A stretch of 64,000 nucleotides of DNA. Origin: a virus. A program made the position numbers and the translations under genes. Within the stretch, counting starts at the first letter, position 1, and every line of letters starts with the position of its first letter. The notes under the pieces are model-generated. The model was not told the DNA's origin. It saw only the letters and a list, made by a program, of their open reading frames with translations, and did not search any database. This document shows, piece by piece, positions 48,565 to 56,081 of the stretch. The stretch is taken from positions 468,730 through 532,729 of IMG/VR virus record IMGVR_UViG_3300049215_000771; one strand, 5' to 3'.

Positions 48565-49098
48565 ATGAATGATGCACCCATTGAAAAAGTTACAGTCCAA
48601 GTGCGGGGGAAGGATGTTATCCTTGATCCCGACAACATGAAGTTCAGCGATGCGTCCTTGTCAGAGTACATGGACAAGGAGTATGGCTGGGTGGATTATT
48701 TCGGCAAACAGTTGGAATTTGCCAACAAGGATTGTCTGGACGCCGAGATTTTGTACGAGGAAGCCTACGCCAAGAAATACTGCGAGGCCAAGGACATGGG
48801 CTGGACGGAAACCCGCTCCAAGCAATTTGCCCTGGCCGATCCCGTTGTGAACCAAGGTCGCAAGGACGTGGCGAAAGCGAAGGAAATTGCTGCGCTTATC
48901 AAAGCCCATTTGAAGGCGTGGGACAAGAACCACGAGAACGCTCAGAACCGTGGGCATACGCTACGCAAGGAGATGGAGAAGTTGCACCGGGAAATCTACA
49001 AGACGCCCGGCCCGCTCCCGGAAGATGCCACGGTCGCTATCGACGAAGATTTTTTCAAGGTGAAGTCTGCGGAGGTTCTTCCCCAAAATGGAGAGTAA
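48565..49098 (+). CDS. Coiled-coil protein next to the helicase
   Basis: 177 aa, MNDAPIEKVTVQVRGKDVIL. Helical with Lys/Glu heptads (KAKEIAALIKAHLKAWDKNH; HTLRKEMEKLHREIYK). Location suggests a helicase loader or recombination accessory, which I cannot confirm. Confidence 0.64.
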   Translation: MNDAPIEKVTVQVRGKDVILDPDNMKFSDASLSEYMDKEYGWVDYFGKQLEFANKDCLDAEILYEEAYAKKYCEAKDMGWTETRSKQFALADPVVNQGRKDVAKAKEIAALIKAHLKAWDKNHENAQNRGHTLRKEMEKLHREIYKTPGPLPEDATVAIDEDFFKVKSAEVLPQNGE

Positions 49099-49333
49099 AT
49101 GGGATTTCCAGACTGCCCTGGGTGACACCATTCGGGAGAAATACGAGTCTTTGTATGTCAAAGTCGTCGAAGTCTCCAACGTAATTAACAGGAAGATGGT
49201 TCGAGGGCAGGCTAATTGGGTTGTTACTTCTCCCGAAGTGGCCTCCATGTTTTTTGAAACAGTTGATGTTGTAGCTGACCAGAAGAAGAAAAAATATCGC
49301 TCCATTGACGACCCCTGGGAATCGTATGAGTGA
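49088..49333 (+). CDS. Tagged mini-protein resembling a capsid A-domain
   Basis: 81 aa. FQTALGDTIREKYESLYVKVV, then VINRKMVRGQANWVVTSPEVAS, which looks like the RG-x-x-NW-V-TSP-x-VAS strand-loop of HK97-fold major capsid proteins. Then QKKKK and YRSIDD (residues 70-75) plus PWESYE. Paralogous to the protein at 55599-56081. Overlaps the upstream gene by 11 nt. Confidence 0.65.
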   Translation: MESKWDFQTALGDTIREKYESLYVKVVEVSNVINRKMVRGQANWVVTSPEVASMFFETVDVVADQKKKKYRSIDDPWESYE

Positions 49334-49544
49334 TTACATCCAAAATGCCTTGGATCAATATCAGGCACAACGGGCGGACGAGATGTTCAGAAAGGCTCAG
49401 GAAGCATTGGGGGATATGGTTGTTTTCCTCAAACAGAATCCCATCGTGAGTCCTGGGCGTGACGACTACTTTGCGATGAACAAAGCATGGCTGAAGAAAA
49501 AGAAGAAGAAATATCGGTCAATCGACGATCCGTGGCAGACATGA
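49326..49544 (+). CDS. Small tagged protein ending YRSIDDPWQT
   Basis: 72 aa, MSDYIQNALDQYQAQRADEM. Helical body, KKKKKK linker and tag at residues 63-68. ATG overlaps the upstream stop. Confidence 0.72.
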   Translation: MSDYIQNALDQYQAQRADEMFRKAQEALGDMVVFLKQNPIVSPGRDDYFAMNKAWLKKKKKKYRSIDDPWQT

Positions 49545-49780
49545 CTTACGACGAGATTTGTGAAGCAATTGACAACGGCGTAATCCCTGTTGAGTTTCCC
49601 AAGTGGCAGTGGAATATGACGGATTACGAACATCCGGTGTCGCTTGCTCCCGAAATATACCAAAACAGAAAGGGAATTCTCACCCGATACGGGCGAAAAC
49701 TTCTTGCCGAGCGTGAGGAACGTGAGATCAACGAGAAGAAGAAATACCGCTCGATTGACGACCCCTGGGAGGCGTCATGA
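49541..49780 (+). CDS. Small tagged protein ending YRSIDDPWEAS
   Basis: 79 aa, MTYDEICEAIDNGVIPVEFP. Contains KWQWNMTDYEHPVSLAPEI, then EKKK and tag at residues 69-74. ATGA overlap. Confidence 0.72.
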   Translation: MTYDEICEAIDNGVIPVEFPKWQWNMTDYEHPVSLAPEIYQNRKGILTRYGRKLLAEREEREINEKKKYRSIDDPWEAS

Positions 49781-50055
49781 AGAAATGCTACAAGTTCAAA
49801 TCCATGCTCGACAGGGATTTGTACATAAACATACCTTCCAGTTCGCACTATCGGATGGTGAAGCCTGGCATGGAGTTTACCTTCGAGGGCGACTGGCATC
49901 CTTATTGGGAAGATTTGATCTACAAAGGCTATGTCGCCCTGGTTGAAATCAATGAACCTCGACAGCCTGTTGACCCCTATTCGCTCCTGACGCCCAATCC
50001 GACGAAACCTGGCAAGTACCGTTCCATTGACGATCCGGGACACTACGATGATTGA
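49777..50055 (+). CDS. Small tagged protein ending YRSIDDPGHYDD
   Basis: 92 aa, MKKCYKFKSMLDRDLYINIP. A small beta body (GMEFTFEGDWHPYWEDLIYK) then tag at residues 81-86. Same overall plan as the tagged protein at 50683-50931. GGGAGG before the ATG comes from the preceding tag codons. Confidence 0.72.
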   Translation: MKKCYKFKSMLDRDLYINIPSSSHYRMVKPGMEFTFEGDWHPYWEDLIYKGYVALVEINEPRQPVDPYSLLTPNPTKPGKYRSIDDPGHYDD

Positions 50056-54510: not shown

Positions 54511-54537
54511 TACAGTTGCCTCAAATCAGGGTACTAT
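54508..54537 (+). promoter_or_regulatory. Promoter TTTACA-N17-TACTAT, antisense to the secreted-protein gene
   Basis: Plus strand TTTACA, 17 nt, TACTAT, directly after the terminator. It transcribes against the minus gene 54526-54873 toward the macrodomain gene at 54919. Confidence 0.6.
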
Positions 54538-54873
54538 GTTGATGTTCACGCAGCCATCGAACGGAATGAAAACCACTCCGTCGTAGCGGAACCAGCAGTA
54601 TTGAACCGGACACCAGTAGCACCAGCACCCATAGCGAACGCTCCAGGAGCGGCAGCTATAGCCGACCCAGGTGGATCGGTAGCAGTAGTGGCGGTAGGTG
54701 TAACCACGATAGCTGTAGCCAAAGTAGTGAACACTGCGGGCACCAGGCGGAACATGGCCTGGATGTCCAGGATGGCCTGGATGTCCTCCGGGATGTCCTC
54801 CACGATGTTGAGCAAGCGCAGGCGAAACGAGGAACAAACAGGCAACAAGGGCTGCCAGAAGATACTTCGTCAT
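54526..54873 (-). CDS. Small secreted protein, Gly/His- and Tyr/Cys-rich
   Basis: 115 aa from MTKYLLAALVACLFLVSPAL, a signal peptide, with GGAGG upstream. Then HRGGHPGGHPGHPGHPGH, a His-Gly-Pro repeat that may bind metal, and a Tyr/Cys/Trp-rich C-terminus (SYRGYTYRHYCYRSTWVGY). Predicted export to the envelope or outside. Confidence 0.6.
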   Translation of the reverse strand: MTKYLLAALVACLFLVSPALAQHRGGHPGGHPGHPGHPGHVPPGARSVHYFGYSYRGYTYRHYCYRSTWVGYSCRSWSVRYGCWCYWCPVQYCWFRYDGVVFIPFDGCVNINIVP

Positions 54874-54918
54874 AGCTTTACCTCCAAAGAAACACTTCAT
54901 CATATGTAGGAGAGGAAC

Positions 54919-55602
54919 ATGAAACTTATTCTTCGAGATCGAAACCAGGGCATGATTGATGCCTGGAAAGTTCACTTCAAGAACCTTCCTGAAGTTGAAA
55001 TTGGCTGCGGTGATATTTTTGACACCCCCGCTGATGCCATTGTTAGTCCCGCCAACAGTTTTGGTTTCATGAATGGCGGTATTGACCTGGCGTACAGCAA
55101 GCGTTTCGGCTGGCAACTTCAGAACAGGTTACAAAAACACTTGTACGAAAACCATGATGGTGAATTGCCAGTTGGTGAAGCAACTATGATCCCGATTGAG
55201 GTTCCTACCGAATCCTACAAGTACCTGATCTCGGCACCAACCATGAGGGTTCCGACTGACATCGACGGAACCGTGAATGCTTACTTGGCGATGCGTGCGA
55301 TCCTTCGTCTAGTAAAACACTTCAACCAGAAGAACTTGCGCCAGGCCGAGTACGACTCGATACGTTCGGGAAAAACAATCATTCCAGAAGCCATCAATTC
55401 CGTCATTTGTCCAGGTTTGGGCACCGCCATTGGCCGACTTCCGTACAATGTAGCAGCTTACCAGATGCGGGAAGCCTACAGGGTTGTGATGGAAAATCAA
55501 CCACATGATTTTCACGACATCGCCGGCTCGTATTGTTATCACGATGCCATGAGGCGAGGCTTGCCGTATAGGGAGCAAGAAGCGTTATTTGGTGAGGCAT
55601 GA
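54919..55602 (+). CDS. Macrodomain protein (ADP-ribose binding or removal)
   Basis: 227 aa. VEIGCGDIFDTPADAIVSPA, NSFGFMNGGIDLAYSKRF (macrodomain loop 1 with Asn), and VICPGLGTAIGRLPYNVAAY (loop 2). These bind or hydrolyse ADP-ribose derivatives. It is two genes away from a PARG-like enzyme. Confidence 0.82.
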   Translation: MKLILRDRNQGMIDAWKVHFKNLPEVEIGCGDIFDTPADAIVSPANSFGFMNGGIDLAYSKRFGWQLQNRLQKHLYENHDGELPVGEATMIPIEVPTESYKYLISAPTMRVPTDIDGTVNAYLAMRAILRLVKHFNQKNLRQAEYDSIRSGKTIIPEAINSVICPGLGTAIGRLPYNVAAYQMREAYRVVMENQPHDFHDIAGSYCYHDAMRRGLPYREQEALFGEA

Positions 55603-56081
55603 TTCAGTACGTTGACAAGAAGCGTGGCAAGTACCGGAGCATTGACGACGACACGCCACCCGACGCCCCGGATGTGATGACCCTCGATGAGTTCCTGGAG
55701 TTGTTCGACAATGCAGGGACGGTATCATTGTGGGATTTCAACTGCGCCCTGGGCACTACCTGCCGTGAGAAGTATGAAAGTCTGTGGATGAAGTTGCTGG
55801 AACTGGCGGGGGTCATCTCGCAGAAAATTGGCAAACAGATGACTTATTGGGCGGCTGTTCATCCCTGTGTGGGGACTGCTTGTTTTCAGGGGTTCAGTCA
55901 TTCACCCCGGCTTATTCCGATGGGTGGGACCGAACCTATTTACCTGGGAACTCTTTGCCAAAGGATGGAGATTTTCGAGTGTCCTCTACCGGACCCGACC
56001 CGGATTCTGGTAGGATGTGGCAACGAGAAGATGACTCCTGAGCATTACGCCAGATTGTCGTTGTGTAACTACGTTATTTGA
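55599..56081 (+). CDS. Capsid-fragment-like protein with N-terminal RSIDD tag
   Basis: 160 aa. Begins MIQYVDKKRGKYRSIDDDTP, so the tag lies at residues 12-17, near the start rather than the end. Then SLWDFNCALGTTCREKYESL, homologous to the 49088 protein, and a C-terminal TRILVGCGNEKMTPEHYARL that recalls the vGxG-type end of an HK97-fold capsid protein. Overlaps the macrodomain stop by 4 nt. Confidence 0.62.
   Translation: MIQYVDKKRGKYRSIDDDTPPDAPDVMTLDEFLELFDNAGTVSLWDFNCALGTTCREKYESLWMKLLELAGVISQKIGKQMTYWAAVHPCVGTACFQGFSHSPRLIPMGGTEPIYLGTLCQRMEIFECPLPDPTRILVGCGNEKMTPEHYARLSLCNYVI

Follow-up and report, generated by a model that had tools for sequence, protein, structure and literature searches.

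Why would a giant phage encode small proteins that resemble pieces of its own major capsid protein (MCP), and what might such pieces do? The question arises from two open reading frames (ORFs), at 49088-49333 and 55599-56081, in a window of 64,000 nucleotides that comprises positions 468730-532729 of the 532,729-bp virus record IMGVR_UViG_3300049215_000771 (G000:C1). A sequence-only reading of this window had taken the two products, which share a motif beginning WDF and a tag, RSIDD, for capsid protein pieces that might be decoys, decoration, assembly regulators or decayed gene copies. Both ORFs are located as claimed, and both products carry the motif and the tag; of the interpretation, the relationship to the MCP holds and the decayed-copy option does not. 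The phenomenon is also genome-wide and larger than had been supposed: the phage encodes dispersed small proteins, each combining a piece of the MCP or of another head protein with a short common peptide, and the tag is present on 36 proteins.

Pieces of the major capsid protein

The true MCP gene lies outside the window, at record positions 338843-340279, and its 478-aa product belongs to the Gp23 family in Pfam and PHROGs profile searches (PF07068, E 6.6e-86; phrog_138) and is homologous to T4 gp23 in structure 5vf3 (E 1.3e-32). It is the last gene of a T4-like head cluster consisting of portal gp20, a large core-like protein, protease gp21, scaffold gp22 and the MCP. The names gp20, core and gp22 are ones that we assume from gene order and resemblance, and the name gp21 is based on the PHROGs match of a relative bearing the tag (head maturation protease, E 2.2e-15). 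By its MCP, the nearest named record is LR756511.1 (81.5%), which is the unannotated 595-kb sequence of an uncultured phage. The portal gene holds an apparent intein (CVAGSTPIATPFG ... HNC), judged by eye only.

Comparison of the MCP with its own record by tblastn returned eight matches, namely the gene itself and seven short pieces in six separate places (E 9.8e-23 to 4.9e-4). The pieces cover MCP residues 1-55, 53-105, 256-311, 306-436, 316-370, 400-448 and 436-464 and jointly span most of the protein; MCP residues 106-255 have no piece in this record, and three pieces in LR756511.1 lie inside 131-239. Among the seven, identity to the MCP is 33/58, 42/48, 36/70, 43/123, 41/51, 28/46 and 18/26. 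Each piece comprises 26-126 MCP residues, so that none holds a complete fold with N-arm, E-loop, P and A domains.

The two proteins reported at the outset are among the seven, and their similarity to the MCP in the whole-record search is not due to chance (E 9.8e-23 for the 49088 protein and 8.6e-16 for the 55599 protein). The 49088 protein (WDFQTALGDTIREKYESL ... RGQANWVVTSPEVAS ... KKKKYRSIDDPWESYE), whose tag is C-terminal, also lies above the Pfam cut-off for PF07068 (35.2 bits vs 24.4). The 55599 protein (MIQYVDKKRGKYRSIDDD ... WDFNCALGTTCREKYESL ... TRILVGCG ... YARLSLCNYVI), whose tag is N-terminal, reached no family in the Pfam or PHROGs profile searches. It had been described as ending at TRILVGCG; instead it continues as far as YARLSLCNYVI, which copies the C-terminus of the capsid protein (YARMSIANFVI). 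The window holds further pieces that had been overlooked, one at about 49541-49780 in the same gene run as the 49088 gene (KGILTRYGRKLL) and an untagged N-terminal piece on the minus strand (Table 1).

The predicted structure of the 55599 protein has a pLDDT of 68 overall; residues 31-100 and 111-160 form blocks with values of 62-87, and the tag region falls below 50. The top Foldseek rows for this model are HK97-fold capsids, the best being 9ukm_A (E 3.3e-4), which is the sole row below 1e-3, and alignment to T4 gp23 gave VIA Z scores of 12.9, 11.6 and 11.1, with 127 residues at 2.9 A for 8gmo_AD. The protein is predicted to form the C-terminal half of an HK97 fold, in a model that is not independent of the MCP homology because its alignment consisted of MCP relatives. 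A model of the full-length MCP was too poor (pLDDT 46) and was set aside. Similarity to gp23-type capsids, the lack of which was to have spoken against the capsid-piece reading, is thus seen in both sequence and predicted fold. Unlike T4 gp23 itself (PF07068; HK97 fold), to which the pieces are homologous, each of these proteins holds only a segment together with an extra tag, and none can form a complete shell subunit.

The pieces are not decaying copies of the capsid gene. Measured against the MCP gene, synonymous sites are saturated or nearly so in every piece (pS 0.71 to 0.97), while the proteins remain 35-88% identical to the MCP, a combination that excludes decaying copies because free drift would not leave 42 of 48 residues in place. 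All seven pieces are without an internal stop, the TGA in the 55599 match being that gene's own stop codon, and like pieces recur in related phages. The MCP pieces are therefore old genes under selection for protein sequence, and, being kept by selection, they probably do a job. One orthologous piece is 62% identical between this phage and its relative G001, whereas the matching MCP stretch of the two is 49/49 identical; the pieces evolve faster than the MCP yet stay constrained. They are about equally close to the MCP and to one another, a pattern that fits either one ancient event or repeated capture.

The ORF directly upstream of the MCP piece at 58.2 kb ends in a copy of the scaffold C-terminus. 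An untagged ORF of 191 aa ending in such a copy (DDLLILSGVK...) lies at L029:877-1452, directly upstream of the piece matching MCP 55-102. The scaffold C-terminal motif was considered as a general third tag and rejected, since in this record it matches only the scaffold and the ORF at 58.2 kb. A paralogue of the gp22 scaffold is encoded at record 132880-133530, well away from the head cluster and on the minus strand, with 47% identity over query residues 27-239.

A short peptide common to 36 small proteins

The tag takes the form K-rich-[YWHF]RSIDD(PWE), spelled for example KKKYRSIDDPWE. DNA patterns run over the whole record gave 23 matches for YR[ST]IDD and 38 for RSIDD, and the reversed patterns gave none. 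By context, 36 of the 38 RSIDD matches read as tags; those at 323475 and 508835 were dropped as not tag-like. Among the 36, an aromatic residue or His is followed by R, then by S (33), T (2) or R (1), and in every case by IDD, with K common before the tag and PWE often after it. At most nine residues follow RSIDD in 32 of the 36, and one or none in 12, so that the tag is mostly C-terminal. Codons differ synonymously among the copies, so it is the peptide that has been kept and not the DNA; this rules out a DNA repeat. In short, small proteins that are otherwise unrelated (ORF lengths 65-231 aa) share the RSIDD tag as a conserved peptide near a terminus.

Once stripped of the tag, nine of the 36 proteins have a match in the head cluster at E <= 1e-3, as against one of 123 untagged, size-matched ORFs of 60-240 aa (two if the untagged N-terminal MCP piece, which the ORF filter dropped, is added; Fisher p 6e-6 to 3e-5). 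The nine are six MCP pieces, a gp21-like protein, a protein with the core protein's NPYVP repeat and one resembling the first 19 residues of the portal, this last match being weak. An RSIDD-type tag is carried by six of the seven MCP-piece ORFs, the exception being the N-terminal piece at window 6732-7028. Against 188 untagged ORFs, taken from the window together with four stretches of 20 kb (144 kb in all), the 36 gave no match, and PADLOC, NCBIfam and PHROGs scans of the tagged proteins, most of which match nothing, revealed no functions beyond those named here. The tagged gp21-like protein, at 238.2 kb, is 38.7% identical to gp21 (Peptidase_S77 type) over residues 44-166 (124 columns) and reads ELGPV in place of ELDHP and GFKMVGVG in place of GISSRGVG, the two gp21 motifs that we take to hold the catalytic His and Ser. 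The NPYVP motif occurs in 58 of 82 relative loci scanned, many of which end short upstream. A prediction that the tagged proteins would be basic, in the manner of internal head proteins, failed on isoelectric point (pI; median 5.9 vs 7.9 in 80 untagged ORFs), and their Lys excess loses significance once the tag is removed (p 0.10).

Relatives and gene neighbourhood

Extra MCP pieces were found in 13 of 38 records (G015 and G016 repeat G014, and G029 repeats G030), a lower bound because many of the records are short fragments; a marginal extra match in LR756508.1 was dropped. Pieces in G001, G002, G003 and G011 end in the tag or a variant of it (HRSITDPW, PRSINDDW, RRTIDDFW), and G014 has the more distant, tag-like RFRDLDDDW. 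Other pieces carry a second motif, MKNxWL, at the N-terminus, which has 27 matches in the 38 records and none when reversed, and a few carry neither motif (two in G014, one in G026, four in LR756511.1). An A-domain-like piece that leads into a similarly shortened ending is present in three phages, G000, G014 and LR756511.1. RSIDD is dense only in this record and its near relatives. When the tag alone was used to scan IMG/VR, eight stretches on six contigs were returned, and four of these contigs hold a real tag, at an MCP piece in three of the four; two of the tag contigs are already known relatives, and two others (L225, L231) were discarded because their sequence reads YSCIDDPW. Contig 3300045125_000119, where the MCP-piece ORFs are broken by frame changes, supports the pattern weakly.

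MKNxWL also starts many small proteins in related phages, including pieces of the MCP N-terminus; by eye, others of these proteins look like a tail tube protein or like a late sigma factor. At G034:C1:10500-14000, two tandem near-complete MCP paralogues of 358 and 337 aa start with MKNKWL and MKNIWL; lacking the MCP insertion domain, they are possibly vertex-type or other shell proteins.

Table 1. Capsid-related, tagged and neighbouring genes. Coordinates are those of the window unless marked as record.
Feature	Coordinates	Strand	Pfam match
Untagged 98-aa protein; first 58 aa match MCP N-terminus (33/58)	6732..7028	-	
109-aa protein; HRSIDD, then 28 aa	9865..10194	-	
82-aa protein; C-terminus KKHRSIDDAT	11965..12213	-	
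77-aa protein; KDWRSIDDDF close to C-terminus	15528..15761	-	
130-aa protein; C-terminus QRKYRSIDDE	16007..16399	-	
95-aa protein; C-terminus KPKYRSIDDDAIPQSEGQ	28523..28810	-	
81-aa protein; MCP piece (MCP aa 318-368, 41/51) and C-terminal tag KKKKYRSIDDPWESYE	49088..49333	+	
72-aa protein; tag KKKKKKYRSIDDPWQT, without MCP piece; start overlaps preceding gene's stop	49326..49544	+	
MCP piece (MCP aa 438-463, 18/26) and tag YRSIDDPWEAS	49541..49780	+	
92-aa protein; tag KYRSIDDPGHYDD, without head-protein match	49777..50055	+	
82-aa protein; tag KYRTIDDWSEYYTA, GTG start	50683..50931	+	
Macro-domain protein; end overlaps start of 55599 gene	54919..55602	+	PF01661, E 2e-9
160-aa protein; N-terminal GKYRSIDDD, then MCP aa 307-432 (43/123), then MCP C-terminal strand; without MCP ~433-466	55599..56081	+	
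Microbial PARG-type protein, neighbour of 55599 gene	56089..56730	+	PF10021, E 2.6e-16
Portal gp20-like gene	record 330903-333470		
Large core-like protein of head cluster	ends record 337207		

The 49088, 49326, 49541 and 49777 genes are consecutive, and because their stop and start codons overlap, the four tagged proteins, two of them with MCP pieces, are probably co-translated; for the 49541 gene, an ATG overlapping the preceding stop is the likelier start than the listed ORF start at 49487. The macro and PARG genes on either side of the 55599 gene suggest an ADP-ribose-related, possibly counter-defence cluster at window 54919-56730. No copy of the T4-type late promoter TATAAATA, sought as a guide to expression timing, was found in the window plus 20 kb, and inspection of the upstream sequences gave no usable common motif. 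Elsewhere in the window, positions 4153-28351 hold 14 predicted tRNA genes on the minus strand, one of them called as tRNA-Pyl (anticodon CTA).

What the tagged pieces may do

In our proposal, [YWHF]RSIDD would serve as a short linear motif for docking and bring at least 36 small proteins to one phage partner, and we infer that this partner belongs to head assembly because the tagged proteins are strongly enriched in head-protein pieces. The MCP pieces may retain MCP-like contact surfaces and so could occupy the sites of the MCP itself, in contacts between subunits or with scaffold or chaperone. Recruited through the tag, they would modulate or block the assembly of capsid precursors, the candidate targets being the phage's own head and, alternatively, the head of a satellite, a prophage or a co-infecting phage. 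Such modulation of, or interference with, head assembly by tag-bearing mimics is the account that we favour, tentatively and with its chance put somewhat short of even. In a broader form, labelled mimics of head proteins and of a kinase, encoded across the genome, would engage the partners of the full proteins, either to poison the capsid assembly of competitors, whether phages, satellites or prophages, or to blind host capsid sensors, with a tag-binding protein controlling where this happens; that form we consider doubtful.

Several observations weigh against placing the tag in head assembly. The head genes themselves are without it, no match occurring between record positions 323490 and 351339, and RSIDD has no match in the 595 kb of LR756511.1, though that phage has MCP pieces. 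The portal and core matches are weak (E 6e-4 and 2e-5, in a tiny database), and homology was deliberately sought for the head cluster, the non-head comparison covering 144 kb of 533 kb. The runs that hold the tagged genes of the window also contain NUDIX, DnaB-type helicase and HhH DNA-glycosylase-like genes, or the macro and PARG genes, and head genes are absent from them; these replication and ADP-ribose neighbours count mildly against a late structural role. At least three tagged ORFs (61182, 181456, 391550) are membrane-like by eye, and another tagged product corresponds to part of a PrkA-type kinase (PF06798, E 3.6e-10), of which only this piece was found in this record, so that use of the tag may be wider than heads. 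The tag might even be unrelated to heads, directing its proteins to a compartment, a membrane or a replication site or marking them for turnover, with MCP pieces as one kind of passenger. This would accommodate the gene neighbours, the 27 of 36 tagged proteins without a detected head match, and the tagging here of a piece of PrkA, which is full-length (694 aa) in LR756511.1, but it leaves the enrichment in head pieces (9/36 vs 1-2/123) unaccounted for, and we think it distinctly unlikely.

The nearest precedent for the overall pattern is found in the T4 internal proteins with a capsid targeting sequence (CTS), which are likewise diverse small phage proteins sharing only a short terminal peptide. 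The T4 CTS is described as a short motif common to diverse small phage proteins (PMC3012670, PMC9026906), and ten of its residues suffice for targeting (PMC9026906). Were RSIDD such a signal, the tagged cargo would enter the prohead and then the next host, and the combination of diverse small proteins, a single short terminal motif and enrichment in head pieces is indeed CTS-like. Yet the tag here is of another sequence and is C-terminal in 32 of 36 proteins, whereas that of T4 is N-terminal and cleaved, and RSIDD itself is without the L/I-x-E cleavage motif. The tagged proteins are not basic, some are membrane-like, the presence of MCP and other head-protein pieces as cargo would be unexplained, and in the window their genes adjoin replication and ADP-ribose genes. 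Packaging into the virion is accordingly an unlikely explanation.

The pieces could instead act as decoys that bind a host capsid sensor or its co-factor without triggering it, since hosts do sense the MCP: CapRel binds a capsid protein (PMC9712102), and Lit acts once EF-Tu is bound by the most conserved region of gp23, the Gol segment (PMC3014915). In those systems it is the MCP by itself, or a short segment of it, that acts on host factors; the segment lies within the normal MCP and is harmful to the phage, whereas here separate genes encode such segments. In alignment, the 58.2 kb piece (MCP 53-105) falls on the N-terminal portion of mature T4 gp23, which is where we take Gol to lie. The macro and PARG genes around the 55599 gene, and the divergence of orthologous pieces beside an unchanged MCP stretch, would also suit decoys. 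However, the pieces derive from sites throughout the MCP as well as from protease, core and portal, a trigger-like piece could equally activate the sensor, and the common tag would have no explanation; decoys are on balance improbable. Almost no weight is left to the view that these are partial duplicates of the MCP gene, neutral or in decay. The scattering of partial copies and their differences among phages would fit these; the saturated synonymous change in conserved proteins, the intact reading frames, the common tag and the recurrence in relatives would not.

Interference with head assembly by tagged mimics, which we continue to prefer, has a parallel, in described role, in the tail-assembly blocker Tab, through which one phage blocks the virion assembly of another (PMC10884400); unlike the proteins considered here, Tab is a prophage protein and targets tails. 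For the tag, an analogy may be drawn with encapsulins. Their cargo-loading peptides are short and C-terminal and dock diverse proteins on an HK97-fold shell, and the RSIDD tag might dock its proteins in a comparable way, with no sequence relation known between the two. No report of dispersed, tagged MCP pieces was found in open-access text, which is weak evidence of absence.

If the proposal is true, parts of the shell protein serve giant phages as separate tools, each bearing a label. The system lets one test how short segments steer or block capsid assembly, as well as how phages handle capsid-sensing immunity, and the RSIDD and MKNxWL motifs provide a handle on small phage proteins that are otherwise uncharacterised.

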